20,017 nucleotides of DNA from IMG/VR virus record IMGVR_UViG_3300028569_000211, positions 1 through 20,017 of that record; one strand, given 5' to 3'. The DNA comes from a virus. The notes beneath the pieces were generated by a model. The model saw only the letters and a program-made list of their open reading frames with translations. It made no database searches and had not been told where the DNA came from. The position numbers were made by a program, and so were the translations under genes. Positions 1 to 20,017 of the stretch are shown here, in pieces; position 1 is the stretch's first letter; the number at the start of each line of letters is the position of its first letter.

Positions 1-3000
1 AAATGACGCACCTGTTGGTGTGATGTAAAATGTGATATCAATAAATTCAAGAGACCTTGTTGGTTTAATATAGATTTTACCTACCATTTGATTTTTATCC
101 AAATCTTCAGTATCACTTGAAACCGTTACTCGGAAATCATATAAACCTCTATCTCTTCTTATTGAATCTAAGATTGGGTTAACCGCGTTCAAGAAGTCTT
201 GTCTTACTTGTTGGTCGTTTTGGTCAAACAACAATCTTACAGAAACAGCAGAGATTAATTTTCTAGCTTGTAGTAATAATCTTCTTACATTGATTCTATC
301 AAGTGCAGATTCTCTTACTTGAAGTGTTTTGTTACCCCAGATTACTGTACCTACATCAGCAAACGTAGCAATTGGGTTAATTCTACCAAGATAAAGAACG
401 TCTCTATCTTCTTGTGTTAACTTCTTACGAGCTTTAATTGAATTTACAATACCACGAGTATAACCTGCTGCCGCAAACCAAGGGAATGCAATATTATCAG
501 TAAGTGCCAAGTTTCTTGTAACCTCAGCCGTTGCTGGAATATAGATTTGTGTATTGTTTACACTATCTCTTGTTAATACCCAAGGATAATATGTTGCAGT
601 ATAGTTAGAGTCAATTCCTGTTTCTTCTAACAAATCAACAGCTTCTTGTGGGTAGATAAAATTATCACCTTCAGTTGTTGTTGCAACAAACATATTGTAA
701 TCCGGCATTGTTGTAATATAAAGTGAATCCGCTCTTTCTCTTTCAACCATATCGATTGTTGTTTCAACAAGATTACTATTATTATACAAATCAATACCTG
801 GTGTTGTTAATATATTGATATTTACAGCTTCTGGGTTTGCAAATGTTCTGATACCTAATAAGTAAGCATAGTAATCTGTGTTACCATATTCAACACTTCC
901 ATCACCGATTGCAATTTGTTTAAACAATCCATTTCCTTTACCTTTTGGATATCTTAAAGATGAACAAGCACCATTTAAGAATCCTGTTCTACCTAAAGTA
1001 TATTTATCGGCATTTGTTCTAAATTCTCTATAGATATCCCAACCATCAAATCCACCATAAACCATTACTGTGAATTTTCTAGTGTTTAATCTGTAGTAAG
1101 GATCAGTTGGGTCTGTAGGTTCTGAAGAGAATGTAGCATCACCAACTTCAAAAGCTGAAGTACCGCTTGAAGCAAATGCTCCTGAAATTGTAATTCCGCT
1201 AGCAAGTTCATCCATATGGAAACCTTTAGTTTTGAAATCCCAATCAAATGGTTCTCCAGTACATAAGTTAAATGGTTTTCTTTTTCCTTTATATTGGAAG
1301 AAGTCTGTATCATAACCCCAGTAAGAACCTAAACCTAAGTATGTTCTTCTAACATTATCTCCAGGACTTGTGAAAGCATCGTCACCACCACTAGATAAAC
1401 CAAAAGGAGGGTTAAATACTTGCTCACCAGGTAAGAAATATTTAGTTTTGTAAACTGGGAATGGTGATTGACCACCTGGGTATTCTCTGAATGTATAACC
1501 TTCAAAACCACAAGGGATTGAATCTATTGGTGCATCTTCATTTATTTCAACAAGGACGTATCTAGATTTTAATTCATATTCACCATCTAATGTACCAATT
1601 TTCTTAGCTATAAAGTTATTTTCTTGTGGATTCATTGAACAATTAGTGAATTTTTCTAACACTACTGGGTTAGAATCACTATCAAAATAATCTCTAATTA
1701 GAACTGTAAACGTTTCATTATTAAATGATAAATCGGCTAATGAAATTTTCACCTCAGTGTTTGCACTATTACCATCTGAAATTGTATAGAACTTAAATAA
1801 GTTATAAACCTTTGTACCTCTTAATTCTGATACAACCCAAGGTGTACTTGGTGATTGGAATTTTTCTAAATAGTAACCAATACTATTTAAATCATTACTT
1901 TGAGCACCTTCACTAGCAACTAATTCAGTACTTAAACCTCTTATATAACCTTTACTCCACGCATAGTTAAGTAAATTCAAATATGATTCTTCAACCATTA
2001 ATGGAACTTGAGTTCTTGGTTTTTCAAAGTTACCACGACCAAACACTTTATTAATGTTTTTAGCATCACTATTAGATAATGAAACTTCAAAATCAAATTC
2101 TTTACCATCATAGTTAGTAACACCAACACTAAATGGTAAGAACGGATTTTTAAGAACGCCACTATATTGACCAGTCATATCTATTGTAACATCTGTAATA
2201 CCAGTAACTTCATAAACTGGATTTGTTCCATCCGAATAAGGGGAATTACCTCTTGATCTTAATGTTGTAATAACTAAATCATCGTATTCAGTAAATGAAC
2301 TTCCAGTGTAATAATAAATCATACCTACAACAGAACCTGTAAAACATACATTTGGTATTGGTGGTACTGTTGTTGTAGTGGTTACTGGTAAAATTGGGTC
2401 ACAAACAAATTGTAGTGTGATTGTAACGTCATTAGGGTCTAATTCCGCTGGGTCACTTGATACTAAATTACTTATTGAACCAGTACCTGCCAATCTTTGG
2501 TAGTCATCGTTAGGGAAACTAACAACTGTACAACCACTAACTTCGCCAGCTTCAATTGTTACAGAATCACTAATTAATATTGGTAATCCACTTGTAACAT
2601 CTATTGTTGCATCAAATGATAGTGTTACATCATTTGGAACCGGTAATGTTGAGGATAAACAAAATTGAACGACAATCGAACCTGGGGCGACTTTAACAAC
2701 TAAATTATAAGGGCCAAAATTTCCAGTCGTTGTTGTCGTTGTTATCATATACGGAATGAACGGATTTTGTAAACTTGTATATGTGTTTGTTTGAACAAGG
2801 TTATCAACAGATGAAAAGAATGAAAATCCTGAGTATAGACTATTTCCAGCATTTTGGAATAAAGCATAATACCAAGAATCGTTTTGTGGTGATGTTGGGT
2901 CTGAGTTTTCAAAAACAACATTATCAACCGCAAATACATTTGTTTCCGCAGTGTAACCACCTGCATATAAACTATTATAATCTGCTTGTGGTATTGAACC

Positions 3001-3645
3001 AAAATATCTTATAAAATTATTTTGTGCTGCAGTTGGATTGCTGCTGTTAATAACATCTGCAATTAATGCGTTAATCTGTGTTTGTAGTGTTGATAAATCA
3101 CCATCAAATTCTTCATACGAAGAAGTTAGAATGTTTTGGATGTCACTTGGGAAACTTGTTAAGTAAGTAACAGCTCCTGTGTTTAGTGTACATGCACTAA
3201 AATTTACGGTAAATGGTAATTCTTTTTTAGTTATACATCCCGGTTCACACAAAACGGTACCAGCACTTAAGCACCAATAGTCTAATGTTTTAGAGTCCAA
3301 GTTTGCTTTAGTTAAAATAGACCAAGAAGGTCCAGCGTCATAACCAGATAATCCTAAAACTCTGGTAACAAACAATTGATTTGATTGTTGTAAATACGCT
3401 TTAGCAATATATGCAGATTCATATCTAGGAATCTGTGTGTTTACGAATTTTTCTGGTGATGTTCCACCGAAATATTGTTGATATTCGTCGTAGTTTCTTA
3501 CAAAAATTGGTTCAAATGCTGGACCTTTAATTGTTTCTCCGACTATTCCTAGAGTTGTAACACCAACACTTTGAGCAACAAAACTCAAATCAACTTCTGA
3601 TGTATAAACTCCTGGTGATACAAAAACTTTACTGTTAGTAGCCAT
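1..3645 (-). CDS. Contractile tail sheath protein, T4 gp18-like, oversized (3' end outside window)
   Basis: Forms the contractile sheath around the tail tube. The frame is open from the ATG at 3645 to the window edge (1215 codons), so the C-terminus is missing. The N-terminus reads SPGVYTSEVDLSFVAQSVG, then GIVGETIKGPAFEPIFV and YFGG, typical of sheath proteins. The last part visible (complement of about 1-720) has the conserved sheath C-terminal pattern, including FPWFAAAGYTRGIV, WGNKTLQ, NVRRLLL and RGLYDFRV, followed by IYIKPTRSLEFI. T4 gp18 is about 660 residues; here roughly 550 extra residues sit between the N-terminal and C-terminal sheath parts. Residues about 300-425 form a beta-rich module flanked by Thr runs (ITTTTTTG and VTTTTVPPIP) that resembles a domain in the protein at 16143-17141. 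The family is certain; the role of the insertion is unknown. Confidence 0.93.
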   Translation of the reverse strand, partial: MATNSKVFVSPGVYTSEVDLSFVAQSVGVTTLGIVGETIKGPAFEPIFVRNYDEYQQYFGGTSPEKFVNTQIPRYESAYIAKAYLQQSNQLFVTRVLGLSGYDAGPSWSILTKANLDSKTLDYWCLSAGTVLCEPGCITKKELPFTVNFSACTLNTGAVTYLTSFPSDIQNILTSSYEEFDGDLSTLQTQINALIADVINSSNPTAAQNNFIRYFGSIPQADYNSLYAGGYTAETNVFAVDNVVFENSDPTSPQNDSWYYALFQNAGNSLYSGFSFFSSVDNLVQTNTYTSLQNPFIPYMITTTTTTGNFGPYNLVVKVAPGSIVVQFCLSSTLPVPNDVTLSFDATIDVTSGLPILISDSVTIEAGEVSGCTVVSFPNDDYQRLAGTGSISNLVSSDPAELDPNDVTITLQFVCDPILPVTTTTTVPPIPNVCFTGSVVGMIYYYTGSSFTEYDDLVITTLRSRGNSPYSDGTNPVYEVTGITDVTIDMTGQYSGVLKNPFLPFSVGVTNYDGKEFDFEVSLSNSDAKNINKVFGRGNFEKPRTQVPLMVEESYLNLLNYAWSKGYIRGLSTELVASEGAQSNDLNSIGYYLEKFQSPSTPWVVSELRGTKVYNLFKFYTISDGNSANTEVKISLADLSFNNETFTVLIRDYFDSDSNPVVLEKFTNCSMNPQENNFIAKKIGTLDGEYELKSRYVLVEINEDAPIDSIPCGFEGYTFREYPGGQSPFPVYKTKYFLPGEQVFNPPFGLSSGGDDAFTSPGDNVRRTYLGLGSYWGYDTDFFQYKGKRKPFNLCTGEPFDWDFKTKGFHMDELASGITISGAFASSGTSAFEVGDATFSSEPTDPTDPYYRLNTRKFTVMVYGGFDGWDIYREFRTNADKYTLGRTGFLNGACSSLRYPKGKGNGLFKQIAIGDGSVEYGNTDYYAYLLGIRTFANPEAVNINILTTPGIDLYNNSNLVETTIDMVERERADSLYITTMPDYNMFVATTTEGDNFIYPQEAVDLLEETGIDSNYTATYYPWVLTRDSVNNTQIYIPATAEVTRNLALTDNIAFPWFAAAGYTRGIVNSIKARKKLTQEDRDVLYLGRINPIATFADVGTVIWGNKTLQVRESALDRINVRRLLLQARKLISAVSVRLLFDQNDQQVRQDFLNAVNPILDSIRRDRGLYDFRVTVSSDTEDLDKNQMVGKIYIKPTRSLEFIDITFYITPTGASF

Positions 3646-3677
3646 TGTCTTTATTTAATTTATTCATTTATTTTAAT

Positions 3678-3685
3678 ATAAATAT
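3678..3685 (-). promoter_or_regulatory. Upstream motif ATATTTAT before the sheath gene
   Basis: On the minus strand ATATTTAT lies 32 nt before the sheath ATG and is one of a set found before most operon-leading genes here. In the same intergenic region the T4 late-promoter string TATAAATA occurs on the plus strand (3677-3684) and on the minus strand (3728-3721), so more than one promoter reading is possible. Confidence 0.4.
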
Positions 3686-3720
3686 TAACGTTTTTACTAA
3701 AAACTTTACTTATTATAAAC

Positions 3721-3728
3721 TATTTATA
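3721..3728 (-). promoter_or_regulatory. T4-type late promoter string TATAAATA facing the sheath gene
   Basis: The minus strand has an exact TATAAATA, the core of T4 late promoters, 75 nt upstream of the sheath ATG and correctly oriented. A plus-strand TATAAATA at 3677-3684 faces the RHH gene, so the 118-bp divergent gap could hold two late promoters. The assignment rests on sequence match alone, and such strings are not rare in AT-rich DNA. Confidence 0.4.
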
Positions 3729-3763
3729 TTTTGGTATGTTTTTTTTCTACCTTTTTTCTACCT

Positions 3764-3928
3764 ATGTCAGAACAACCAAAAAAGATAAAAAATTTAAAAA
3801 TTGATAAAGACGTTCACGAGGTCTTAAAAAAGTATTGTGATAAACGAGGACTTAAAATGTATAAGTTTTTAGAAGGTCTTATTTTAGAAAAATGTAAAGA
3901 AAAAAAAGATATATACGGTGAAGATTAA
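3764..3928 (+). CDS. Small ribbon-helix-helix (RHH)-like DNA-binding protein
   Basis: A 54-residue basic protein starting MSEQPKKIKNLKIDKDVHEV and ending KDIYGED. A short strand (KNLKIDK) followed by two predicted helices (DVHEVLKKYCDKRG and MYKFLEGLILEKCK) fits the Arc/CopG/MetJ fold, which binds DNA as a dimer. I chose the ATG at 3764. An in-frame TTG at 3731 would add a hydrophobic stretch (MVCFFSTFFLP) that does not belong to this fold, although a TATTTAT motif sits just before it. The gene stands alone on the plus strand between two minus-strand tail genes and its stop overlaps the stop of the gp15-like gene. It may regulate neighbouring late genes or be a stray part of a mobile cassette; it is only distantly like the two RHH proteins at 11603 and 17237. 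Confidence 0.65.
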   Translation: MSEQPKKIKNLKIDKDVHEVLKKYCDKRGLKMYKFLEGLILEKCKEKKDIYGED

Positions 3929-4962
3929 TTAAGAGCCTCAACGTATACTAAGCTAGCAACTTGTGTTGCATCTAGTCTAACAATTTGAAATAAAATTGTA
4001 TCATTTGTGTTAATCTGTATTTCAGTTAAATCATTTCCATAGTAATCGCCATTTATATAAACCTGGAACGAACTAATGTTGTTTGATTGGGTTAAGTTCA
4101 TTTTAAATGTATAATTAAATAATTCCTCAACCTCATCAGTTGTTACTGGAAATACAACATCATAAACCGTTGGTTCTGGTGGTTGTGCTCTTTTTTGTCT
4201 TTTTTTCTTATACGGAGTTTCAGTTTCAAATATTTGAAAAGATCTTGTAATTGCCGGACTAACTTCAAATTGGTCTTCATCTATTAGAAAACCCATCATT
4301 GTAAATTCGTATTTTTGGATATAATACTTTCTTTTCTCCAAATCCATTACGGATTCATCCGTTATACTATTCATTTTAATTGGAATATAATGTCCTTTAA
4401 TTGTTTGATATGCTTGAAGTGATGAAAACTTTTCTATAACAGTTTGATTAAATCTATTAACTTCACGCATTCTATTACAGATAATTGCAACCGTGTAAGT
4501 TATATCAACTGGTACTGGTTGTGGTATTTTATAAATGTCGTAACCATTTTTGTTTCCATCCCAAGTTGGTACTTTAGCGTAAAAATACAATCTCCTATTA
4601 GGTATTGTATAAACTATTGAGGGGTTGTTACCGTATTTAACTTCTGGCGTTCTAATTACTGTAATAAAAGGTGGTTCGGTGTTCTTGTCGATGTTTTGGA
4701 AATCCCAAGTTTCAACAAACTGTGACCAATTTTGTGTTGTAATTAAAATATCTATCATTGGGATAGTCTTTCCTTCAACAACACATTTTAATTCATCACG
4801 AACAAAATCCAAAAACCCCCTATCCAAATCAGCATGTAATAAACTTTTTGGTAAGAATGTTCCATCAGCTTCTATCATATCACGAAGTTCTCTTCTTCGT
4901 GGTAAAAGAGTTTTAGATTCGGTTAACGGAATGTATTTTTTTATTTTTTTTGGTAATGCCAT
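3925..4962 (-). CDS. gp15-like tail sheath stabiliser / tail completion protein with C-terminal extension
   Basis: A 345-residue protein. Its middle and later parts resemble the T4 gp15 family, which caps the tail tube and sheath and joins tail to head: a segment with VDITYTVAIICNRMREVNRF, then GHYIPIKM, a KRKYYIQKYEFTMMGFL strand pair and DEDQFEVSPAI. After about residue 255 a basic linker (KKKRQKRAQPPEP) leads to some 80 residues of beta-rich sequence (TVYDVVFPVTTDEVEEL to LVYVEALN) that I do not expect in gp15 and that looks like an added domain. The ATG lies 2 nt after the stop of the gp14-like gene, so the two are co-transcribed. This neighbourhood, and the sheath gene beyond, supports the assignment. 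The similarity is by eye and distant. Confidence 0.55.
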   Translation of the reverse strand: MALPKKIKKYIPLTESKTLLPRRRELRDMIEADGTFLPKSLLHADLDRGFLDFVRDELKCVVEGKTIPMIDILITTQNWSQFVETWDFQNIDKNTEPPFITVIRTPEVKYGNNPSIVYTIPNRRLYFYAKVPTWDGNKNGYDIYKIPQPVPVDITYTVAIICNRMREVNRFNQTVIEKFSSLQAYQTIKGHYIPIKMNSITDESVMDLEKRKYYIQKYEFTMMGFLIDEDQFEVSPAITRSFQIFETETPYKKKRQKRAQPPEPTVYDVVFPVTTDEVEELFNYTFKMNLTQSNNISSFQVYINGDYYGNDLTEIQINTNDTILFQIVRLDATQVASLVYVEALN

Positions 4963-7350: not shown

Positions 7351-9447
7351 ATGAAAGTTAAGGTAAAACATATAAAGTGTGATATGTCTGAAAAAGACAG
7401 AAAGTTAGCAAACGATTTTATAAAATTTCTACAAAAAAAATATCCATTAAAAGAAGAAATTACAATTATTTTTACTGGTGAAAGATTTGGTACAATGTCA
7501 TCTGGAAGTAGAACTCAAGATTCTGAATTAAAGATATTAACTAAAGGAAGAATGAATAGAGATATTTTTAGAACTTTAGCGCACGAATGGGTACACGAAT
7601 GGCAAATGAATGTAAAAAGAAAAAAACCAACTAATGATGGTATTGGTGGACCACTAGAAGATGAGGCAAATGCTGAAGCGGGTTCTCTATTAAAAAAATT
7701 TGAAAAGTCTTTCCCGGATAAAGAAGAAATGATGTATGAGAGTATAAATAAAAAAATTAATTTATTAAAAGAAAATATTTTAATTACTGAAAAACAAAAC
7801 ATCAAAGAAGAATTTCTTTTAGAGATGAAAAAAATTGGTATTGAAAAACTACCTTATTCGTATTCGGCATTAAAACAATTTGTTGATCCAGAAACAATGG
7901 ACATACATTATAACAAACATTATAAAGGTTATGTTAAAAAATTAAATGACGCTCTTTCTAAAAAAAATTATAAAGATGTTGATTTAGAAGATATTATAAA
8001 ATCTATTAGTAAGTACGATACAAAAGTTAGAAACAACGCAGGTGGTGCATTTAATCACGCATTGTTTTGGAAAATGTTATCACCAAAAAAACAAATCCCA
8101 AAAGGTGAGATTTTTGAAAAAATTACCAGACAATATGGTAATATTAAAAAAATGAAAGACGAGTTTAATGAAGTCGCTAAAGAAAGGTTTGGTTCTGGTT
8201 GGGTTTGGCTTGTTTTAACAAAAACAAATAGATTAAAAATTATGTCCACACCAAACCAAGATAATCCACTGATGAATATTATTAAAGATGGTGGATATCC
8301 ACTTCTTGGTCTTGATTTGTGGGAACACGCATATTATCTTAGATATAGAAATAAAAGAGATGAATACATTAAAAAGTTCTGGAACCATATAAATTGGGAA
8401 TTTGTTAATGAACTTTATGTTGGTAAATCTAAGAAAAAATTAAACGAAACATATTTGAGGGTTCTATTAGAAAGTGAAGAATTTGAACCTGATGTTAAAC
8501 GAGCAATGAATCGAGAATTACAAAAAATTAGACTAATTCCTTTGGATACTGAAGCTGGTGAAGTTGCTATTAATAATATTATAACAATTGAAATTGATGA
8601 ACGTGGTTTAAAATTTAATAGAACAATAGAAGGTCTTATGAATTTAGATTTATCTGAAACTTCCGAAAGAACAAAATTTAGATTTAATAATTATTACCAA
8701 AGATTTGTTAGAAGTAGATCAAGAGGTTTAGATTTTGAAGCATTAATTTCTGGTTTGCTTGGTGGACAAATTCCTTCTGGTTTAAATACACCTTATGATT
8801 TAATAACACCAGAAGGATTAAAAATTTCTTGTAAAATAGTAAGAAACACAAGTGAGTCACCGGTTTTAAAAGGGATTAAAGCATCACTTTCTGGATATAT
8901 TAATTCGTATACCGGTAGTGAAGAAAATAAAAAATATTTACAATCAATTGAAAATGAATCTAATTTTATTGCTCAGTTGATTAGTAGTCAAAACCAAGAT
9001 ATAGTTAATGTTGCTGAAGATTTAATTGATTACTTATTAAGTGATATTGACGGTATGTTATTGGGTGTACCAAAAGATAATTATGAAATATCATTATATT
9101 ATTATGATAAGAATGCACTTAAAAATATTCTTAAATTACCTGGTATGACGACAGCACCAAAATCAAAAAATTCACAACAAATAAGATTTTCAACAAAAAT
9201 ATTAAAATTAACCGATTCTGATGTGGCACCACAAAGAGGTGCAATAAAGTTTCCAAAAATATCAACCCAAGAATATTCAGAATTTTTATTAGGTGATGAT
9301 AAAACAAAAGAAGTTCTTGATTTATTTAATAACTTAGGTCAAAAATATGGTGTTGGTAAATTAGGTGATAACATCCCACAAGATATAATTAGGAACCTTT
9401 CTAGAAATGAAAGATTCAAAATGGATGTAAGAAGAATACTAAAATAA
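7351..9447 (+). CDS. Three-part fusion: HExxH peptidase-like, Mn/Fe superoxide dismutase, nuclease-like C-terminus
   Basis: A single open frame of 698 residues. Residues about 1-125 carry a zincin signature, LAHEWVHEWQ (His78, Glu79, His82), with a possible third ligand in EDEANAEAG (103-111). Residues about 160-356 are a complete iron/manganese superoxide dismutase, converting superoxide to peroxide and oxygen. Its metal ligands His186 (in IHYNKHYKGYV), His236 (in GGAFNHALFW), Asp322 and His326 (in LDLWEHAYYL) are all present, and Gln303 in the PNQDNPL segment is at the position typical of Mn enzymes. Residues about 370-698 match nothing I know well; DFEALISGLLGG (461-472) and YDLITPEGLKISCK (482-495) faintly recall a PD-(D/E)XK nuclease core. 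Spacer segments rich in Lys/Glu/Asn separate the parts. The next gene is a gp13-like neck protein, so a virion or assembly role is possible. Confidence 0.85.
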   Translation: MKVKVKHIKCDMSEKDRKLANDFIKFLQKKYPLKEEITIIFTGERFGTMSSGSRTQDSELKILTKGRMNRDIFRTLAHEWVHEWQMNVKRKKPTNDGIGGPLEDEANAEAGSLLKKFEKSFPDKEEMMYESINKKINLLKENILITEKQNIKEEFLLEMKKIGIEKLPYSYSALKQFVDPETMDIHYNKHYKGYVKKLNDALSKKNYKDVDLEDIIKSISKYDTKVRNNAGGAFNHALFWKMLSPKKQIPKGEIFEKITRQYGNIKKMKDEFNEVAKERFGSGWVWLVLTKTNRLKIMSTPNQDNPLMNIIKDGGYPLLGLDLWEHAYYLRYRNKRDEYIKKFWNHINWEFVNELYVGKSKKKLNETYLRVLLESEEFEPDVKRAMNRELQKIRLIPLDTEAGEVAINNIITIEIDERGLKFNRTIEGLMNLDLSETSERTKFRFNNYYQRFVRSRSRGLDFEALISGLLGGQIPSGLNTPYDLITPEGLKISCKIVRNTSESPVLKGIKASLSGYINSYTGSEENKKYLQSIENESNFIAQLISSQNQDIVNVAEDLIDYLLSDIDGMLLGVPKDNYEISLYYYDKNALKNILKLPGMTTAPKSKNSQQIRFSTKILKLTDSDVAPQRGAIKFPKISTQEYSEFLLGDDKTKEVLDLFNNLGQKYGVGKLGDNIPQDIIRNLSRNERFKMDVRRILK

Positions 9448-9450
9448 TTT

Positions 9451-9480
9451 ATTGTGATATTTATATAAAAAAATCACAAT
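9451..9480 (+). promoter_or_regulatory. Inverted repeat spanning the neck-gene start codon
   Basis: ATTGTGAT (9451-9458) and ATCACAAT (9473-9480) are perfect 8-bp arms around a 14-nt A/T loop. The right arm includes the A and T of the ATG at 9479. The loop and left arm contain the GATATTTAT motif. It may be an operator or a start-occluding RNA hairpin. Confidence 0.5.
9456..9464 (+). promoter_or_regulatory. Upstream motif GATATTTAT before the neck gene
   Basis: GATATTTAT ends 14 nt before the ATG at 9479, in the main 13-16 nt spacing class. It is identical to the strings before the RHH genes at 11758 and 17237 and before the gene starting at 16112. Confidence 0.45.
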
Positions 9481-10606
9481 GGCAATTATTGATGAACCAA
9501 ACAGAAGTAAATTATACACAAAAGTAAGACATTTACTTGGCGCACCACTTAGAAGTGTTGAGTTAGAAGATGAACAAATGGACACTCTTTTAGAATTTTC
9601 TATCGACGAGTATTCACAATATGTTCAAGATTGGCTAATTGAATCGCAATGGACCGCACTTTATAATCTTAATTTAGATACGCAATCATTAACAAAAGCT
9701 TTTACAACTAGAAGTCTTGATTATGAAACAAGATACACATATGCCTATTCAAAAATCGTAGGTCTACAAGCTGGTGGTGATTCTGTATTAAAAAAGGATT
9801 ATATACAATTAGTACCTAAACAACAGATATATGAAATTCCCGCTGGTCGTGAATTAAACGAATTGTTATGGTTTTCTCCACCAGAATTAAATAATATGAC
9901 ATTTGACCCTTGGTCTTTTGGTTCTTTAGGTGTTGGTGGTGGTCTCGGAGGAGGTGGTGGTTTAGCTCAAATGGGTAATATGGGTGGTAGTTATTTTATG
10001 ATGCCAGCTTTTGATATGCTATTAAGAATGCAAGAAATTAACATACAAAGAAGAATTATTGCCGGTGAATTAACATATCGTGTAACAGCATTACCTGAAG
10101 GTAAAAAAGCAATTCACTTAATGAATACCCCTGGTGGTAAGTTTGACTTTGGTAATGGGACATTAATGAAAGGTCGTGTTTGGTATTGGTATTACGATGA
10201 TGGCGGTGATAGAGATAAATGTTTGGCTGAAAATCCAGACATAATAAGACTACCATCGGATGTTCCGTTTGATAAAATGGGTTGGAATGATTTAAATAAT
10301 CCAGCACAAGTTTGGGTTAGAAGATGGTTTATTGCTTATTGTAAGGAAACATTATCTAGAGTACGAGGTAAGTTTAGTGGAAACTTAAAAACAGGTGAAG
10401 GTGGTGATTTAACTATGGATTACGCATCACTGGCAACTGAAGCTAAAGATGAAAAGACAAAACTTATTGATGAACTTATTGGTGCTGAAGGAAGACTTAC
10501 AAGATTAAAACCAGAAAAAGTTATGGAACGTGAAGCATTACTTGCTGAAAACTTAAATAAACAGCTCAAGTTCAGAGCAATGCCAAGACAAATTTATGTA
10601 ATATGA
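9479..10606 (+). CDS. gp13-like neck (head completion) protein
   Basis: A 375-residue protein with the layout of the T4 gp13 family: an N-terminal helical segment (YTKVRHLLGAPLRSVELEDE, then LLEFSIDEYSQYVQDWLIES), a tyrosine/glycine-rich middle, a helix AFDMLLRMQEINIQRRIIAG, a beta region GRVWYWYYDD, and a C-terminal WVRRWFIAYCKETLSRVRGK helix followed by GKFSGNLKTGEGG. In T4, gp13 binds the portal after packaging and, with gp14, makes the platform for the tail. An unusual glycine-rich loop, roughly residues 149-171 (GVGGGLGGGGG and onward), interrupts the middle, and the C-terminus is longer than T4 gp13 (309 residues). The ATG is inside an inverted repeat. The stop overlaps the next ATG (ATGA), so the two genes are translationally coupled. 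Confidence 0.75.
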   Translation: MAIIDEPNRSKLYTKVRHLLGAPLRSVELEDEQMDTLLEFSIDEYSQYVQDWLIESQWTALYNLNLDTQSLTKAFTTRSLDYETRYTYAYSKIVGLQAGGDSVLKKDYIQLVPKQQIYEIPAGRELNELLWFSPPELNNMTFDPWSFGSLGVGGGLGGGGGLAQMGNMGGSYFMMPAFDMLLRMQEINIQRRIIAGELTYRVTALPEGKKAIHLMNTPGGKFDFGNGTLMKGRVWYWYYDDGGDRDKCLAENPDIIRLPSDVPFDKMGWNDLNNPAQVWVRRWFIAYCKETLSRVRGKFSGNLKTGEGGDLTMDYASLATEAKDEKTKLIDELIGAEGRLTRLKPEKVMEREALLAENLNKQLKFRAMPRQIYVI

Positions 10607-11805: not shown

Positions 11806-14778
11806 TTATGAAATAAATTTTTGCATATATGGGTCAACACCCTCATACATATGGTAAGGTGAGGTGTTAATGTTTTCCCAAAAATTTAATTCTTCTTGTG
11901 ATATTGTCATAACGTCTTCTAGTTTATCTTGGTCTCCATCGTCAAACGGAACACCATTTATTAACTCACATTGGTCCTTGGTAAAGAAAGGTCTATCCTC
12001 TGGATTTTTAACTAAAAACCCTTCTCTGACTTCTTGTTTAAAACAAACAAGTAGTGGTTCTACTCTTTTATTGAAAGTTGCAATTGCTCTTTGGATATTA
12101 TATTCACCGGTTAATCCTGGGTTACTTTCTAATTCTTGGGGATTAATTCTATAACAGTTTAATTGTATAACAGAACCGACAAGATCAGAAAACGCTCGTT
12201 GGTATGCCGAATCTGTTGGGATACCTGTGTTTGCTTCTTTATTTGGTGAGTCACTTCTTACCCAGTTATCATCAGACCAAGATTGTTCCCACCCATTTTT
12301 AAGTAAGAATTTTACTTTTTCTTTATGACTTTCATTAGTTTGGAAAAATAAATTTAAGTGTTCTTGTGACCAACCCTTCTTTGGTTTATTAACTTTCTGA
12401 ACATCACCGTGTGAAGCTTTTGTTCCGTTGTTTACATAATAAATTACATCACCAAGATTAACATTAAGACCTTCATTTATTGCAAGTTCCATATGTGCTT
12501 GTCTTGATATAAAGGCACCAGCTTTTGTTTTGGTTTTACTTCGTTTAATGTAATCATCAATTGATTGTTTTATTCTTGCTTTACTCGCAATATCAATAAG
12601 TGGTATTTTTTGGTCAAAGATTCTTTGTATGTATTCATAATACCACTCAACAAATCCTTGTCCATTACCATTAAGTAATAACTTAATTGCTTTATCTAAG
12701 AAAATCTCAATATATTTTGGCATCTTTTTAGATTTAATACTATTACCAGTAAGTTTGATTTTACCTTTTTCTGTTATTAACGCATAATTCTTACGAGCAA
12801 GATTAATACATGCCGGCCATCTACCGTCCGTATCGAGCGCCATTTCACCTTTCATTGCCAAATCATTAAATTCCATAACATCTGCCTCCTCACCAAAATA
12901 TTCTTTACCTTTCGTTACTTTCCAGTTTAAACCCTTACCAACATATCTTCTACTATCAACACCATCTGGGACAGAAAAATTGACACCATCAGTATCCATC
13001 ACAGTCGCAGAATATCCTCTTTCACCAAAAAAATTTATCATCATTCGTAGATATTGTCTTCCTGTTGTTGTAATCATTTCCCCTTTATCCATATCACCCC
13101 AAGGAAAAACTTGTGGGGCAGAAAGTGCACCGAATAAAGAGTTAATAAATATCTTAATTGGTAATTGTTTAGTATCAAATGACTTTGATTTTTTTGAATC
13201 AACGTTACTGTATTCTTCGGCTAAATTTTTATACATAATTCGGGTATTCCTAAAATAAGATAGGAGACCCTTCATAACACCTGTTATATCCGATTCTGGA
13301 AATACATTATGAACTAACTGAATAGACGGATAAAGTGATGAATAATCCAGTTTCAAAATATTTTTAGAATACCCAACTTTTAATAATCTTGATAATCCAC
13401 CAACAAAGTTTCTTTTTTCTTTCTTTGTAGGAATTGCAAGTCCATTTTTATATGACCAGGCAAGCATTACAAGCTTCCAGATTGTTGCGGTACCCATAGT
13501 TGATACTCTTTCATATGTTGTTGGGAGAAGTGACGCCAGAAGGAATGAACCTTGGTTAAATTCTTCATCAACAAGTAACGTTTCTTCTAAGTCATCGTCA
13601 AGGTAACGTTCCACAATGTCGTCCCCCGTTGTTTGAATATAAATGTCAGTTCTTCTTGAACATACCTCATCTATCTTTTCGTCTACACCAACCTTTTTAT
13701 ATTTTCCGTTTTCTATGTTTAACCAGTATAAGTTTTTTTCTTTGTATAAAGAACCAATCTTATCGTGATCAATATAAACACGATCTTTTGCTTCACCATC
13801 AATAAATTTTGTAATATATTTAAGACCCGCTTCTTTGATTGAAGAATTAATTGCTTGAGCTCTACGAACTGAATGGATAATATCAATGATGTTATAACCC
13901 CACATTTGAGTCTGAGTAAATTTTTCAACCTCGTTACCAAGTTTTAACATCGAATCTTTTTGTGTTATTGACCTTTCACCGTGAAGTGACTTTGCAATTT
14001 TTTTAATATCAAGATTTAACATCTTACATCTTTCATAAATCCAATACCAGTCAAAGTTTGCTGAGTTATAACCAGAAATGATTGATGGTTTTATTTCGTC
14101 TATAATTTTAAAGAACTCAACAAGACCTTTTCGTTCTTCGTCTTCATTTGAACACTCAATTACTTTTCTGTAACCTTTATTTGTTTTAATTCCAATCATA
14201 AAGATACAACCATCTCTAGGCTCTAAAGAGGTCGTCTCAAGGTCAAATACAAGTCTATGAATATCGTTGTACTCATCAAATCCTTTAAATAGTCTTTTTT
14301 CTTTTGATATTAAAAATTGTTCCGTTGGTGTTAACATTAAGAATTTATCTTTTGCTTTTTCACCCCAGGGATCAATACCACCGTCTCTAAAAAATTGTGA
14401 TAGTGCTCTATACCCTTTTAATGATTTAACAAGGAATGTTAAGCCTTTTTCTAATTGTTCATTACCATCAGTTCTTAACTTTTCAATAACAATACCATAT
14501 TTAGACATTGCTTCTTTTTGTAAAGCTTTTGAACCTTGATAAAAGTTAAGTCCACGTAAGTCACCAACCCACGCAAATGCTATTAAACTATCTCTAACGA
14601 TTGATTTTCCCTTTCCGGGTACTTCTTTGATTTTATAAATGTGGTCTTTTTGATAGTCGAACTCTATTGTCACAATGTGTTCTTCAGGGTCGTTTCCTTC
14701 TAGAAACGATTTAATTTCTTCTGCTGTTATCATAATATATTTTTTGAGTGGTTCATTTGCTGTCGCACAAAACGACAT
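11806..14778 (-). CDS. Replicative DNA polymerase, family B (T4 gp43-like)
   Basis: Phage replicase with 3'-5' proofreading. Exonuclease motifs: Exo I VFDLETTSL (Asp179, Glu181), Exo II ISGYNSANFDWYW (Asp243) and a probable Exo III RYLDDDLEET (Tyr392, Asp396). Polymerase motifs: A LKLDYSSLYPSI (Asp478), B KQLPIKIFINSLFGAL (Lys537 to Gly550) and C TVMDTDGVNF (Asp595, Asp597). Motif C has Gly where DTDS is usual. Length, about 990 residues, is near T4 gp43 (898) with a longer N-terminus. Two starts are possible: the ATG at 14778, which sits 13 nt after an ATATTTAT motif, the same spacing as at 16112 and 17141, or the ATG at 14733 (MITAEEIKSFL), which gives a more ordinary N-terminus. I keep 14778 on the motif evidence. 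No intron or split is seen. Confidence 0.95.
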   Translation of the reverse strand: MSFCATANEPLKKYIMITAEEIKSFLEGNDPEEHIVTIEFDYQKDHIYKIKEVPGKGKSIVRDSLIAFAWVGDLRGLNFYQGSKALQKEAMSKYGIVIEKLRTDGNEQLEKGLTFLVKSLKGYRALSQFFRDGGIDPWGEKAKDKFLMLTPTEQFLISKEKRLFKGFDEYNDIHRLVFDLETTSLEPRDGCIFMIGIKTNKGYRKVIECSNEDEERKGLVEFFKIIDEIKPSIISGYNSANFDWYWIYERCKMLNLDIKKIAKSLHGERSITQKDSMLKLGNEVEKFTQTQMWGYNIIDIIHSVRRAQAINSSIKEAGLKYITKFIDGEAKDRVYIDHDKIGSLYKEKNLYWLNIENGKYKKVGVDEKIDEVCSRRTDIYIQTTGDDIVERYLDDDLEETLLVDEEFNQGSFLLASLLPTTYERVSTMGTATIWKLVMLAWSYKNGLAIPTKKEKRNFVGGLSRLLKVGYSKNILKLDYSSLYPSIQLVHNVFPESDITGVMKGLLSYFRNTRIMYKNLAEEYSNVDSKKSKSFDTKQLPIKIFINSLFGALSAPQVFPWGDMDKGEMITTTGRQYLRMMINFFGERGYSATVMDTDGVNFSVPDGVDSRRYVGKGLNWKVTKGKEYFGEEADVMEFNDLAMKGEMALDTDGRWPACINLARKNYALITEKGKIKLTGNSIKSKKMPKYIEIFLDKAIKLLLNGNGQGFVEWYYEYIQRIFDQKIPLIDIASKARIKQSIDDYIKRSKTKTKAGAFISRQAHMELAINEGLNVNLGDVIYYVNNGTKASHGDVQKVNKPKKGWSQEHLNLFFQTNESHKEKVKFLLKNGWEQSWSDDNWVRSDSPNKEANTGIPTDSAYQRAFSDLVGSVIQLNCYRINPQELESNPGLTGEYNIQRAIATFNKRVEPLLVCFKQEVREGFLVKNPEDRPFFTKDQCELINGVPFDDGDQDKLEDVMTISQEELNFWENINTSPYHMYEGVDPYMQKFIS

Positions 14779-15020: not shown

Positions 15021-16112
15021 TTAGTCAATCGGTAACCCAACCATATAATTTGATGTAATATTACTCCAACCAATACCAAATTCATATTTCATAACTTTAT
15101 CAACAACAACATAAGATTCAAATTGTAACGTACTGTCAGGAATAACATCAGTATTGATAAAAATACCACTTAAAAAATATACATCGTTTTGTGTGTTACC
15201 TGTTACTTGACTTGGTAAAACATCAATAATGTAATCATATGCAGAATCTCTAATTACTTCTGTTGCATAAATCATTTGTTTATTGTAAATTACTTCGGAA
15301 GTACCAGTAAATGCTGATAATGTTGCCTTATGTGACCATAAAATATCTGTTAACTTCCAAAAAGAATAATTACCATTATCAAATGGAGGATTACTTTGAC
15401 TTGGAGGTGCCGATAAAACATTTACAACTTGGTTAATTGCTCCCCAAACTGCTCCACAGGTATTATCAGTTAAACTATCAGATTTACCTCTACGTAACAT
15501 TCTTCCTGAACGACCATCTTCGGTAACACCAATGTGTGGCATACTTGTAACAAATAAAGTTGCATTTGTTTCGGTAACACCACTTGCGGCTACGTGACTC
15601 GCAAATGCCCCAAAACCAACACTACCAACAAATGGATAACCCGCCAATCCACCTGACATAAATGGACCTAAAAACGAATTAATACTATTTGGCCATTGAC
15701 CAATATTTGATGGTACTTTTGATGCGTCAACATCATCAGAACAAATACCTTCGGCCAATACAATAGATGTTGACGGTATTCCTTGATTTGTTATATATTC
15801 AGTTGTATATGTTCCCCAAATTTCAGATAACACCGCTCCTGAAAATGGTTTTAACCCACCATCTATTGTAACGTCTCTAACTATTGTTGTATATGCACCC
15901 TGCCCATTTTGTGGTGCTGGAACAATTACATTATATGTATAATTAAATAAAGGGACAAATAATTCATACGTACCGTAAGGATAGTTTGTGATGTTATTAA
16001 AAGGGATTGTTTGAGTACCTAAATTAATTGTACCTCCCGTTTGTGGGTTAAAAGTGACATTAGCGGTATCTCCCGATAAATTTTGACTTGTAATTCTTAT
16101 TCCTTGTATCAT
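15021..16112 (-). CDS. Probable virion protein containing an LCIB-type beta carbonic anhydrase-like domain
   Basis: A 363-residue protein. Residues 1-85 form a beta-rich module (ITSQNLSGDTANVTFNPQTG, then GTINLGTQTIPFNNI and YGTYELFVPLFNYTYNVIV) of phage structural type. Residues about 88-345 resemble the LCIB family of beta-type carbonic anhydrases, which interconvert CO2 and bicarbonate. Matching features are EGICSDDVDASK (Cys124, Asp126/127), GGLAGYPFVGSVGFGAFASH (154-173), FVTSMPHIGVTEDGRSGRML (187-206, His193), the RRGK that follows, NTCGAVWGAI (Cys219) and a later FLSGIFINTD strand like the GGIQINT of LCIB proteins. The three expected zinc ligands, Cys, His and Cys, are all present. There is no signal peptide. 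It is co-directional with the repeat-bearing gene upstream and ends before a terminator. The family call is from memory of its motifs, and activity is inference. Confidence 0.65.
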   Translation of the reverse strand: MIQGIRITSQNLSGDTANVTFNPQTGGTINLGTQTIPFNNITNYPYGTYELFVPLFNYTYNVIVPAPQNGQGAYTTIVRDVTIDGGLKPFSGAVLSEIWGTYTTEYITNQGIPSTSIVLAEGICSDDVDASKVPSNIGQWPNSINSFLGPFMSGGLAGYPFVGSVGFGAFASHVAASGVTETNATLFVTSMPHIGVTEDGRSGRMLRRGKSDSLTDNTCGAVWGAINQVVNVLSAPPSQSNPPFDNGNYSFWKLTDILWSHKATLSAFTGTSEVIYNKQMIYATEVIRDSAYDYIIDVLPSQVTGNTQNDVYFLSGIFINTDVIPDSTLQFESYVVVDKVMKYEFGIGWSNITSNYMVGLPID

Positions 16113-16142: not shown

Positions 16143-17141
16143 TTAAATTATTAACTCAAAATTTAAATTTCCTTCAGGTATTCCTATAGGTTCTAAATTT
16201 GTAATAACCAAATCAAAATTTAAATCTCCTTCAGGTATTCCTATAGGTTCTAAATTTGTAATAACCAAATCAAAGTTTACATCATCTTCTGGTATATCTA
16301 AAACGACAAAATCATTAGGTGTTGGACTAGGTGTTGGTGTTGGTGTTGGACTAGGTGTTGGTGTTGGGGTAATTGGAAACTGTTCAAAGATTTCCCAAGT
16401 CGCATCACTTGGTATTACAACAATATTTCCAAACACATCATTTCTTGATAAATTATCAAAATTTTCATCTAATATAACTTGTGTTGTTCCAGATGTAAAA
16501 CCTGTAAAAATTGTAACACCAGTTGATATTGTAATTGGACTTCCACTATAAACACTTAATATATGATCAAAATCAAATTGTACGTCTTGACCTAGTATTG
16601 TTTTATTTGCTGTTAAATAATAATCAACAACAACAGAACCAGATGTAACAACGGCTGTTAATTGTAAATTAAGTGGGATTGGTTGTACACAAATTGTTGT
16701 TGTTGTCGCAGTAATAACCGGACTTGTATTACAACAAGGAAATTCACTAACATAACAATTATTATATTCTAATGAATCACCAATAAAACTTTCTTGTACA
16801 TTAATATATAGTTTGTCTCTTAAAGGTAGTATTAAAACACCTTCATCATTTCTAAATAAAAATTGTCCTTCATATCTACCAACTTTTCTTGTGTCTGTAT
16901 TTGAAAACTGATAATAAACATAATATTCTGGTTCGGCATTTGGGTCCAACATTTCTTTTGCAACAAATCCTGCCGGTCTTGTGATAATCTTTGGTATCCC
17001 AGTATCAACATCAACCATTGAAAAGAATATCGCAGATTCTTCAATAAGACTCATCATTCTATTAAAATCACTTCTGCCGTCTTTTGTCACGGATAACTTC
17101 AATAAGGGTAATGTTGCGTTTTTCTTAATAAAGAATTCCAT
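16143..17141 (-). CDS. Probable virion protein with sheath-related beta domain, Pro/Thr linker and repeats
   Basis: A 332-residue protein of unrecognised family. Residues 1-130 are a folded module (MEFFIKKNATLPLLKLSVTK, then IFFSMVDVDTGIPKI, EYYVYYQFSNTDTRKVGRYE and LPLRDKLYINVQESF). After a cysteine pair and a Thr run (ITATTTT) comes a beta domain (about 150-255) similar to the insert in the tail sheath: both have GS(I/V)VV, F-D-x-x-(I/L)-x-V-x-SG-x-PI-x-IS, VTI-x-x-G and a following SG. Next is the linker PTPTPSPTPTPTPSPTP, then three tandem copies, the last shortened, of a repeat like IPEGDLNFDLVITNLEPIG. This is the layout of a surface fibre, appendage or decoration protein. It is 30 bp upstream of the carbonic-anhydrase-like gene. 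There is no signal peptide or membrane segment. Confidence 0.7.
   Translation of the reverse strand: MEFFIKKNATLPLLKLSVTKDGRSDFNRMMSLIEESAIFFSMVDVDTGIPKIITRPAGFVAKEMLDPNAEPEYYVYYQFSNTDTRKVGRYEGQFLFRNDEGVLILPLRDKLYINVQESFIGDSLEYNNCYVSEFPCCNTSPVITATTTTICVQPIPLNLQLTAVVTSGSVVVDYYLTANKTILGQDVQFDFDHILSVYSGSPITISTGVTIFTGFTSGTTQVILDENFDNLSRNDVFGNIVVIPSDATWEIFEQFPITPTPTPSPTPTPTPSPTPNDFVVLDIPEDDVNFDLVITNLEPIGIPEGDLNFDLVITNLEPIGIPEGNLNFELII
16156..16299. repeat. 57-bp tandem repeat (2.5 copies) in the 3' end of the gene
   Basis: Units start at 16156, 16213 and 16270, exactly 57 bp apart; the first two differ at only a few bases and the third is partial and diverged. The unit is a whole number of codons (19) and encodes the C-terminal IPEG...NLEPIG repeats of the 332-residue protein. 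Confidence 0.9.
16318..16370. repeat. Short-period repeat encoding a Pro-Thr-Ser linker
   Basis: Two copies of GGTGTTGGACTAGGTGTTGG with extra GGTGTT units encode alternating Pro-Thr and Pro-Ser on the minus strand. This forms a stiff, extended linker between the beta domain and the C-terminal repeats. Confidence 0.85.
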
Positions 17142-17392: not shown

Positions 17393-17483
17393 TAAATGTA
17401 AGGAAGAAAAAGATGTTTGTGAATTTGGACTACAAAGTTCAAATAAAGATAATTTAAAAAAAAGTAATAAAATTTTAAATTAA
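17373..17483 (+). pseudogene. Remnant of an HNH endonuclease (N-terminal head only)
   Basis: The frame METKICSKCKEEKDVCEFGL followed by QSSNKDNLKKSNKILN is 36 residues. Its first 12 residues are identical to the start of the HNH gene at 11622 and similarity continues through the FG and a K-D-x-L to about residue 28. The second zinc pair (CNDC in copy A) and the whole catalytic core are missing, and the frame stops at 17481, overlapping the end of the glycosyltransferase gene by 4 bp. This is the stump of a deleted endonuclease, not a working enzyme. The start overlaps the RHH gene in the same way as in copy A. Confidence 0.75.
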
Positions 17484-19141
17484 CTTTCTTTTCTTAATTC
17501 TTTAGAATAATGATCAAAGCGTTCATGCTCAACTGGTGTTAATAATAACAAACCACCCCTTAATTGATTTTTCTTTGTTAATTGGTAATGATGACTCATC
17601 CAAGTATTTTCAAAAGGGTGTGTCCATTTTGTATCCAAAAACATTTTTTTATTACCTTCTTGACTTATAATATGTGTCCAATTACAATAGTATATTTCAC
17701 CATCAACATATGGTAATCCTTTATGTGACATTATATTATTAAACTTGGTTTTTGGTACATTTGGCTCTAATCCATTGGTTGGTAAATTAGGTTTTTCAGG
17801 AAAATACTCATTTCTTTTTTCTTGTGGTAGGTTATACCAGGGCCAACAAGTCCCGTTGTCACCGTAAAATTCACTATAATTTATTTTGAGAAATTCAAAA
17901 TCTTCTTTATTCATTATTTCAAAACACTTGTTAAATAAATTTGGTGTGTATCTATTAAATCCGTTTTTACAAGTTTCATCTGGTTTATTTTGGAAAAACA
18001 TATCATCCTCTGACCACCACATATATTGTAAATCCGTGTTAGCAAAATGTTCGGCAACAAATTGTCTTCCACCACAAATACCCAAATTATTCTTCTTAAT
18101 GTGTTCAAAACCATATTCATCACATAACTCTTTATACCTTGGTGTTGTTGAAAGGTCTGTTGAGTTATCAAGTAAATATTTTTTTGTTTTATGTATAAAA
18201 TTTGGGTCATAACCCAACATTGATTTTATTAAAGTTTCAAATTGTTTTGGTGAGTTAAACGTGATTACATATAAACCAATATCTCCTTTATATTTTGTTA
18301 CAACTTTTTTTCCCTTATTTTTAATCACAACCGTATTATTTTTTACATCTTCAAAAAATTTGTACATCAAACCATTTGATTCTATTTCACAATAATCAAT
18401 CATTGATGGATAAAGATATGTCATAATTGTGAAAATACTTTCTTCGGTTCCCATCAAATTTTTATTTAATGTATCAATAAGTAATTGGTAATATAAAACA
18501 TTTAAGTCAGCAATTTTTTGTTTTGTCCCACCAAAAAATCCGCCCCTTGAAACAAATTCTGTTTTTGTTTTTGCGTAATCACACATTTTTTTATAATCAA
18601 ATCCGTGCACTTCGTTTTCCGCTTCATAAGGAAAAACAACAAACATAAATTTATCAAATAAACTTTCTATTTTATCTAATACATTATCACGAGTAAAATA
18701 CCCAAGATTAACCGTGTTAGTTAATCCGGCATCTATCCAGTAAAGTTTTTCGGAATTAAAAGAATCCAAAATAGAAGCGTCGTGTAGTAAAAACATTTTA
18801 GACATTACAAGTGGATTGTAATATTCTAATCTTGCTTGCGTTGATTCTTTTAACCAACCAGAAATATTATACCAATTTTCATTTGTTCTTATTTTTTGGA
18901 TTTTATCAAAGTATTCGTTATTTCTAAACCAAGATAAATCCCTATTGATAAATTTTGTATTAGTTGGGTTTCTATATTTGAATACAAATTCTTCTAGGTG
19001 GTTATCACCAAAAATAATTAAATTACAATCTATTTGTAAAAGTTCTTTGAATTTTTCTAAATAATAGTCAAAAGACCTATTCCATCCTTCATTAAGATTG
19101 CCTCTACCAATATCCCAAAGACCTGTAACAAGTGTTATCAT
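17480..19141 (-). CDS. Two-domain glycosyltransferase (HtrL/WlaTC-like N-terminus plus GT-A-like C-terminus)
   Basis: A 553-residue cytoplasmic-type protein. The first half (TLVTGLWDIGRG at 3-14, GWNRSFDYYLEKFKELL, NLIIFGDNHLEEFVFKYR, later KLYWIDAGL) matches the pattern of HtrL/YibB/WlaTC proteins, probable sugar transferases of surface polysaccharide clusters. The second half begins near residue 290 (GDIGLYVITFNSPKQFETLI) and carries LLDNST, NNLGICGGRQFVAEHF and MWWSEDDMFF, where EDD is a plausible metal-binding DxD-type motif of GT-A enzymes. A natural two-enzyme fusion is likely. The ATG overlaps the stop of the upstream glycosyltransferase (ATGA), so they form one unit. Targets could be phage DNA bases, virion proteins or host surface sugars; the sequence does not say which. 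Confidence 0.7.
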   Translation of the reverse strand: MITLVTGLWDIGRGNLNEGWNRSFDYYLEKFKELLQIDCNLIIFGDNHLEEFVFKYRNPTNTKFINRDLSWFRNNEYFDKIQKIRTNENWYNISGWLKESTQARLEYYNPLVMSKMFLLHDASILDSFNSEKLYWIDAGLTNTVNLGYFTRDNVLDKIESLFDKFMFVVFPYEAENEVHGFDYKKMCDYAKTKTEFVSRGGFFGGTKQKIADLNVLYYQLLIDTLNKNLMGTEESIFTIMTYLYPSMIDYCEIESNGLMYKFFEDVKNNTVVIKNKGKKVVTKYKGDIGLYVITFNSPKQFETLIKSMLGYDPNFIHKTKKYLLDNSTDLSTTPRYKELCDEYGFEHIKKNNLGICGGRQFVAEHFANTDLQYMWWSEDDMFFQNKPDETCKNGFNRYTPNLFNKCFEIMNKEDFEFLKINYSEFYGDNGTCWPWYNLPQEKRNEYFPEKPNLPTNGLEPNVPKTKFNNIMSHKGLPYVDGEIYYCNWTHIISQEGNKKMFLDTKWTHPFENTWMSHHYQLTKKNQLRGGLLLLTPVEHERFDHYSKELRKES

Positions 19142-20017
19142 AAATCACCAACTAATCTATCACACCAACCTTTTGATTTTGAATGTGGCCATACAACCCA
19201 ATATTTCGGTTTTTCTTTTGCATTAAACTCCCTCCATATTTTTCCGTAACCGTCGGCATCTGTTTTTATTTTTTTGATTTCTTCTTCTTGTGCGTCAATA
19301 CGATAAATTGTTTCATCTTTATCGTTATGAAATGCAACAACTAAAAAATCATAATCGTCTTCTGGTATTTTATCTAATGGAATATCTATACAATGTTTGA
19401 ATATTCTTAAAAAACTTTCTTTCCATTCTTTATCATTTTTATAATCATAAGGATTTGGTGGATAGTTTTTATCTATTGTATATTGTTGTACGGATCTTTT
19501 TTCAAAAAGAACACCAGAGTATTTTTCATAGTCTCTTACCTTTCTTTCTTTTCCAAAACCATATTTTAATTTTCCTTTAAATTTTTCACCATCAACACCT
19601 AATACTTTTCTATTTTTACTATGTGAACTTTCATTTTTCTTATACCATACACTATCATCATCCCACTGTTTTGTTCTACCTTTTCTTGTGTACTCGTGAT
19701 AAATTACAATTTTATGTGGATGGAATAAATCATATCCGTGGGTATACGCTCTAACAGCAATTGATATTTCTTCTCCGTGAAAATAATATTCTGGATCGTG
19801 TTGGACTTCTGTTGAAAATTCACCTAACGTGAAACAAAAATGTGCCGAGTAAAATCTTGCGGGTATTGGTTTTTTTAATTCTTGCCAATTAGGTATTACT
19901 TCTGGTAAAAAGAAAACAACACCTTCTGGCGTAAATCTATCAAATACCATTCTCCAGGGTTCTGTAACTCTTCCTTGTGGGTCGTTGTCTGGATCAAAAG
20001 ATGAAACATAACCTGTA
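19138..20017 (-). CDS. GlcNAc-type glycosyltransferase, 5' end outside the window
   Basis: The frame is open to the window edge (about 292 codons seen), beginning mid-protein with TGYVSSFDPDNDPQGRVTEP; the Met encoded at 19950 is internal. The part seen resembles the GlcNAc glycosyltransferase family first described for eukaryotic cytoplasmic enzymes and widespread in large phages: FTPEGVVFFLPE, ARFYSAHFCFTLGEFSTEV and DPEYYFHGEEISIAVRAYTH, followed by GYDLFHPHKIVIYHEYTR. The GEE and H-x-Y elements are hallmarks of its active region. After about residue 155 of the visible part the sequence becomes Lys/Asp-rich (YDYKNDKEWKESFLRIFKHC, EDDYDFLVVAFHNDKDETIY), probably an extra beta domain. The stop overlaps the downstream glycosyltransferase start by 4 bp, giving a coupled pair. 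Confidence 0.8.
   Translation of the reverse strand, partial: TGYVSSFDPDNDPQGRVTEPWRMVFDRFTPEGVVFFLPEVIPNWQELKKPIPARFYSAHFCFTLGEFSTEVQHDPEYYFHGEEISIAVRAYTHGYDLFHPHKIVIYHEYTRKGRTKQWDDDSVWYKKNESSHSKNRKVLGVDGEKFKGKLKYGFGKERKVRDYEKYSGVLFEKRSVQQYTIDKNYPPNPYDYKNDKEWKESFLRIFKHCIDIPLDKIPEDDYDFLVVAFHNDKDETIYRIDAQEEEIKKIKTDADGYGKIWREFNAKEKPKYWVVWPHSKSKGWCDRLVGDL

Follow-up and report, generated by a model that had tools for sequence, protein, structure and literature searches.

An apparently intact LCIB-type carbonic anhydrase domain in putative virion proteins of uncultured tailed phages

Genes of the window

We analysed a virus record of 20,017 bp, the whole of which is called the window in this study. 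It carries the gene set of a contractile-tailed phage (sheath, Ad2-like adaptor, PolB, SNF2-type helicase, glycosyltransferases), with the following features.

1..3645, minus strand: tail sheath protein of a contractile-tailed phage, start codon at 3645 (phrog_23 tail sheath, E=2.4e-56)
7351-9447, plus strand: 698-aa protein with an Fe/Mn superoxide dismutase (SOD) domain at residues 165-354 (Sod_Fe_N 1.5e-22, Sod_Fe_C 1.1e-38)
9479..10606, plus strand: head-tail adaptor, Ad2-like (phrog_211, E=3.4e-9); 65 ORFs of the fetched loci
11806..14778, minus strand: Family B DNA polymerase (PolB), the next gene downstream of LCIB in the window (PF00136 E=2.9e-13, phrog_262 E=8.8e-55)
15021..16112, minus strand: 363-aa fusion gene, N-terminal beta module plus LCIB-type carbonic anhydrase (CA) domain; intact ORF, ATG to TAA
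15909..16112, minus strand: N-terminal beta module (N-module), residues 1-68, common to non-LCIB proteins of the same phages
15849..15908, minus strand: linker and first helix, residues 69-88 (AlphaFold2 helix 71-79); other architectures join the LCIB domain near here
15078..15848, minus strand: LCIB-type beta-carbonic-anhydrase domain, residues 89-345 (PF18599, Foldseek, profile to PDB)
15024..15077, minus strand: phage-specific C-terminal tail, residues 346-363, W.(D/N)ITxxYxxGLPID
16143..17141, minus strand: 332-aa appendage-like gene, 30 bp upstream of the LCIB gene on the same strand
17480..19950, minus strand: HtrL_YibB-like protein and GlcNAc-type glycosyltransferase (Pfam PF09612 E=2.2e-20, PF11397 E=3.3e-32)

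Near copies of the 363-aa protein were found in IMG/VR, two records at 93-94% identity and about 22 further full-length ones at 75-81%. Its C-terminal tail was kept among phage homologues, and most bacterial homologues were without it. The 332-aa protein encoded upstream is modular, with a conserved N-terminus, a PTPT linker and C-terminal LDIPEDD repeats. We found homologues of it in 65 ORFs of the fetched loci, many of them directly upstream of LCIB or one to two genes off. Repeats of the LDIPExDLNFxLI type end several otherwise unlike appendage-like proteins (window 16143-17141 on the minus strand, L023 5498-7972, L116 724-1104, L118 7818-9977) and are possibly a common C-terminal tag.

The GlcNAc-type glycosyltransferase ORF continues towards the window edge. 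Genes for HtrL_YibB-like proteins and GlcNAc-type glycosyltransferases were kept near LCIB across the phage group, and their products might glycosylate the Thr/Pro-rich linkers of the appendages. The nearest cultured relatives of the PolB were in Salinibacter phages (~24% identity), while relatives of the sheath came from Flavobacterium phage immuto and a Microcystis phage. The sheath of the window was unusually long, 1215 aa compared with 574-578 aa in the L130 group. The sheath-family match was limited to its last ~300 residues, and a large middle part was without assigned type.

The LCIB domain and its predicted fold

Profile searches and the predicted fold both show that the 363-aa ORF contains an LCIB-type beta-carbonic-anhydrase domain. 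The sequence-only reading had named a set of motifs in LCIB order, and all of them were present: C-S-D-D at 124-127, PHIG with His193, TCG with Cys219, the GYPFVG...GFGAFASH block (in full GGLAGYPFVG...GFGAFASH) and SGIFINT. Its assignment of the protein to the LCIB-type beta-carbonic anhydrases was borne out by Pfam-A, in which residues 103-337 matched PF18599 LCIB_C_CA (E=1.9e-27, 96.4 bits, curated cut-off 25). In a phmmer search of the PDB LCIB structures alone were matched (best 6KFS, E=3.2e-11). With a profile of 53 homologues, 6KFS and 5B5Y were found at E~1e-52 and Chlamydomonas LCIB and LCIC at E~1e-18 and 1e-16, respectively.

The AlphaFold2 model of the 363-aa protein had a mean pLDDT of 76.9. 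It was poor at the N-terminus and at residues 133-148 and 176-180, and moderate around residue 124 (block mean 66). We compared this model with the PDB by Foldseek, a check that the sequence-only reading had proposed, and the top six matches were all LCIB structures. PtLCIB4 was the best (5B5Y, E=9.9e-14, TM 0.82 by target length), followed by 6KFS, CrLCIB and then, weakly, canonical beta-CAs (such as E. coli Can and H. influenzae HICA; E 4e-3 to 4e-2). The latter resemble the phage domain in their Cys-His-Cys zinc site and Asp-Arg type of dyad; they differ in the spacing of the zinc motif, and no sequence relationship with them was found.

An unrelated phage fold was considered and rejected, as there was no match in BFVD (best E 0.8) and the PDB matches above threshold were LCIB proteins only.

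Conservation of predicted active-site residues

The residues of the predicted active site, with the counts of phage and bacterial sequences that cover each position, were the following.

15741..15743, minus strand: Cys124, predicted zinc ligand (CSDD); Cys in 46/46 phage and 40/40 bacterial sequences
15594..15596, minus strand: His173 (ASHV), counterpart of PtLCIB4 His88; His in 48/48 phage and 39/39 bacterial sequences
15534..15536, minus strand: His193, predicted zinc ligand (PHIG); His in 48/48 phage and 38/38 bacterial sequences
15492..15494, minus strand: Arg207, predicted dyad Arg; Arg in 48/48 phage and 38/38 bacterial sequences
15456..15458, minus strand: Cys219, predicted zinc ligand (TCG); Cys in 48/48 phage and 38/38 bacterial sequences

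Together with Asp126, the predicted dyad Asp within CSDD, these residues were invariant wherever covered (48 distinct phage and 40 distinct bacterial sequences), and Arg207 was the sole invariant Arg of the LCIB domain. The invariance of the six residues spanned phage groups only ~44-55% identical to the window protein. Cys124, His193 and Cys219 are the Cys/His/Cys zinc ligands predicted in the sequence-only reading, and they were conserved in all covering phage and bacterial homologues. We estimated the chance that six residues named in advance would all fall among the 25 invariant of the 257 domain columns at ~5e-7, a figure which leaves aside that Cys and His tend to be conserved in general.

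In the alignment with PtLCIB4, Cys124-Ser125-Asp126 corresponds to C-S47-D and His173 to His88, for which a mutant structure, H88A, has been deposited (5B5Z). In the alignment with solved LCIBs, His193 falls on the H of SHVG/PHVG, and Cys219 on the second C of CCG. Judged by the whole-fold match and the alignment with PtLCIB4, Cys124, His193 and Cys219 would probably lie close together in space. Beta-CA sites hold zinc by two Cys and one His, and also require an Asp-Arg dyad and an active-site His. Since the six invariant residues match this requirement, we infer an active site of the beta-CA type.

The phage domain resembles the LCIB/LCIC family (PF18599; PtLCIB4 5B5Y, 6KFS, CrLCIB 5K5W, CrLCIC 5B5X) over the whole domain, in fold and in the predicted zinc and active-site residues. 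It differs in being fused to modules of the structural region, in forming a separate clade on a long branch, in an insertion of ~6 residues near 135-146, in T/N for the first C of CCG, in its extra C-terminal tail and in D for E at position 127, which is Asp in the window protein and Glu in 39 of the 40 bacterial homologues. Stand-alone bacterial LCIBs (L033 Planctomycetota, L034 Chitinophagaceae, L041 Balneolaceae) have the same domain at 20-30% identity with the same invariant residues; they are, however, single-domain proteins of ~230 aa with no virion module and fall outside the phage clade.

In the original LCIB study three of six homologues were reportedly active, PtLCIB4 included. Conserved residues are no guarantee of catalysis, because Chlamydomonas LCIB and LCIC keep the fold and the zinc motif, yet had no CA activity as purified (PMC5876011).

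The N-terminal module and an adhesin alternative

The sequence-only reading had also described a separate beta-rich N-terminal module. This description proved right, as AlphaFold2 gave a confident model of the N-module with six strands (pLDDT 92.7), and the module was found in other appendage-like proteins. An iterated HMM search of the same loci detected the module in roughly a dozen ORFs without LCIB, where it stood alone (67-86 aa), with Thr/Pro-rich linkers, or at the head of proteins of 170 to 910 aa. There were up to six copies per phage record. The 272-kb record G003 had six, one with LCIB, one followed by DUF285/BspA-type repeats (Pfam) and a second of this kind recognized by eye. The 363-aa protein has modules in common with other structural-region proteins, through its N-module and through the several LCIB fusions described below.

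The fold search with the N-module against the PDB gave no significant match (best E 0.28 and above, to Ig-like/VHL-like beta sandwiches), and phage proteins were absent among the best 50 matches. This is a failure of recognition and not proof against location on the virion. At L215 3022-5430, 5417-7648 and 7885-11004, the 272-kb record encodes further N-module proteins with long DUF285/BspA-type repeats, as well as a 1040-aa protein that has many Thr/Pro/Gln linkers and a Hint/intein-like end (CGCLVVNTVITLSDGSTKLIQDV...VLTHNK).

The adhesin-like cargo which the N-module carries elsewhere, such as the DUF285/BspA repeats, and the position of the LCIB gene among appendage and glycosyltransferase genes fit an adhesin built on the CA fold, in which LCIB was recruited for binding of a receptor or glycan and CO2 chemistry is irrelevant. 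Vaccinia protein D8 has a CA fold of the alpha type. This envelope protein is a virion adhesin whose CA-fold domain binds chondroitin sulfate, which makes it a precedent for the CA fold in virion adhesion; it shares with the phage protein a CA fold on the virion and differs as a membrane-anchored chondroitin sulfate adhesin of an animal virus, from an unrelated family (PMC4256255). The remark in the sequence-only reading that it knew of no described virion carbonic anhydrase has to be qualified by D8 (PMC4256255).

In a receptor-binding domain one would expect the binding surface to be the most variable part, and there would be no reason for metal ligands and a dyad to be kept. The six active-site residues never vary, though much of the LCIB domain does, and constraint is slightly stronger on the LCIB part than on the N-module. 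That the metal and dyad residues are wholly conserved argues for chemistry. We regard the adhesin as the main rival to a virion-borne enzyme, and as an unlikely one.

Carrier proteins of the LCIB domain

We observed five architectures of LCIB proteins in related phages. Architecture A is that of the window, with the beta module (residues 1-68) and LCIB in 356-363 aa. In architecture B (L121, L122, L134) LCIB is an in-frame insert of ~275 aa in a ~500-aa protein, at a short loop (...LILFRIP(E/K)... / ...PQxWDEGVGYDY...). The carrier was uninterrupted in 77 fetched relatives, and G003, which has architecture A, also has an uninterrupted carrier (57% identity). The architecture B gene directly follows a gene of ~510 aa with the motif DPLMLGRIRG. 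From its sequence this neighbour looks like a gp5/baseplate-hub OB-fold protein, and it had no PHROGs or Pfam match.

In architecture C (L132, L133) LCIB is fused to a TKDQLTALLNSNITDALNKQNTASKVRQVIQS... N-terminus, which in L126-L130 belongs to a neighbouring 307-aa protein, and the gene lies between the Ad2-like neck genes and the tail sheath. Architecture D (L126-L131) has a short N-terminus and LCIB at the same place before the sheath, and architecture E (L125) has LCIB and a C-terminal part of ~110 aa. Because the phage LCIB domains form a single clade (100/100), one acquired domain has moved among structural-region genes. Throughout these moves the LCIB domain always kept its predicted catalytic residues.

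Further, we considered an intracellular auxiliary metabolic enzyme, which would supply HCO3- for carboxylations in nucleotide and fatty-acid synthesis, with the N-module as a dimerisation or solubility domain. Stand-alone LCIB homologues do exist in Bacteroidota, Balneolota, Planctomycetota and other bacteria, and bacteria such as E. coli need carbonic anhydrase to grow at low CO2. Our motif-based IMG/VR scans, however, found no stand-alone metabolic-gene form of LCIB, and several kinds of insertion into and fusion with structural-region proteins are unexpected for a soluble metabolic gene. This is the reading least consistent with the fusions, and we consider it decidedly unlikely.

Distribution, phylogeny and selection

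We scanned IMG/VR three times, using the window protein or alignments of LCIB, and obtained about 70 contigs with the LCIB domain. The last scan, with a bacterial LCIB as reference, found no further group; these scans rest on short motifs (in the last, GGLAG[FY]PF), and forms without such motifs would escape. We found no phage with the LCIB domain in INPHARED, PHROGs or BFVD. When 50,697 phage records were searched by tblastn, there was no match to the window protein or the short LCIB form, nor to the 500-aa carrier or either of the two N-terminal modules. Literature searches on LCIB carbonic anhydrase in phage returned just an unrelated algal review, those on LCIB in viral genomes nothing, and the papers on carbonic anhydrase and tail fiber included unrelated uses (size-exclusion marker, plasmid gene).

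In the maximum-likelihood tree the phage LCIB domains were apart from the bacterial and solved LCIBs, and the branch of their clade was long (2.9 changes per column). A phage-specific insertion lay at about 133-148, where the AlphaFold2 model was poor. The gene was under purifying selection (median dN/dS about 0.19 for the LCIB part and 0.23 for the N-module).

The long branch, the phage-specific insertion and Asp127 allow a changed pocket, and beta-CA-fold enzymes that act on COS or CS2 are known. The domain might then be a zinc enzyme of the beta-CA fold displayed on the virion that hydrolyses COS or CS2, or acts on some other carboxylated substrate. Its motif set, however, agrees with PtLCIB4, and 44 of 46 phage sequences also have Ser125; nothing observed here points to another substrate, and we regard this reading as highly unlikely.

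Other origins of the gene were considered. Host contamination or a mis-binned contig is out, as homologues lie in viral records that reach 272 kb and have genes for sheath, tube and adaptor; contamination is also contradicted by a phage-only clade apart from bacteria. Recent pick-up from a host was not supported, as all bacterial sequences fell outside the phage clade, which a long branch separates from them. A pseudogene or drifting relic is out as well, given dN/dS of about 0.19 and complete ORFs.

Proposed function

Of the interpretation in the sequence-only reading, the LCIB membership, the ligand conservation and the separate beta-rich N-terminal module stood; location on the virion, zinc, catalysis and a physiological benefit we infer as follows. 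The product of the window gene is probably a virion-anchored, zinc-dependent carbonic anhydrase. The small beta module would serve as its anchor on the virion, probably on an appendage of the tail, collar or baseplate. The LCIB part would bind one zinc per subunit through Cys124, His193 and Cys219, with water/hydroxide at the fourth position or, alternatively, Asp126, which would pair with Arg207, and His173 would assist at the active site. On the virion the enzyme may convert CO2 to HCO3-/H+ and back at the surface of the host, while the phage adsorbs or its DNA enters. Alternatively, it may do so inside the infected cell during virion maturation and assembly.

These results suggest that the virus particle itself carries a CO2/bicarbonate enzyme. 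Uncultured tailed phages apparently carry an intact zinc LCIB-type CA domain in several putative virion proteins. It is quite possible, though we put this forward tentatively, that this LCIB-type domain is the first case of a catalytically competent carbonic anhydrase in phage particles, those of a lineage of large contractile-tailed phages, probably of Bacteroidota. The domain would be an exchangeable virion cassette on beta-module appendage, baseplate-region and neck/collar-region proteins, and would presumably manipulate CO2/bicarbonate or pH at the host surface.

Phage particles are known to bear enzymes that degrade polymers, and phage genomes to encode metabolic enzymes. The enzymes known from phage virions include tail-spike depolymerases, virion lysins and virion-associated proteases, which degrade cell-surface polymers. 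The phage LCIB protein is like them in having an enzymatic module on an appendage or baseplate protein; LCIB belongs instead to a CO2-hydrating family. In the papers and databases that we searched, a metabolic-type CO2 enzyme in structural-region proteins is undescribed. New here are an anchoring module common to several proteins, an in-frame insertion into another structural-region protein, a third carrier next to the sheath, and the grouping of the phage LCIBs in one clade. One enzymatic domain on three or more carriers, with active-site residues that are never lost, is a strong natural experiment for virion function. It raises the questions whether free virions hydrate CO2 and whether local bicarbonate or pH is relevant to phage adsorption or DNA entry. 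The phage set also provides very divergent proteins of the LCIB family, whose biochemical function within the carbon-concentrating mechanism of algae is still under debate.

Host and further enzyme domains

We found a Shine-Dalgarno-like motif in only 11 of 704 ORFs of these phages, and the upstream regions of their ORFs were A-rich at -3 and at -11 to -13. Few Shine-Dalgarno sites and an A-rich upstream pattern are known for Bacteroidota. Because Shine-Dalgarno sites are lacking, the phages probably infect Bacteroidota.

L023 encodes, at 817-4206, a linker-rich, appendage-like protein of 1130 aa with a C-terminal papain-type peptidase (phrog_16701, E=1.6e-43), and this gene sits three genes upstream of the LCIB gene. 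In the 698-aa protein of the window, the SOD domain follows an N-terminal part that contains a protease-like HEWVH motif, and precedes a C-terminal part of unassigned type. The SOD domain was seen again in ~20 relatives, in differing fusions of 250-958 aa. With LCIB, it makes two small-molecule enzyme domains in this region of the phages.
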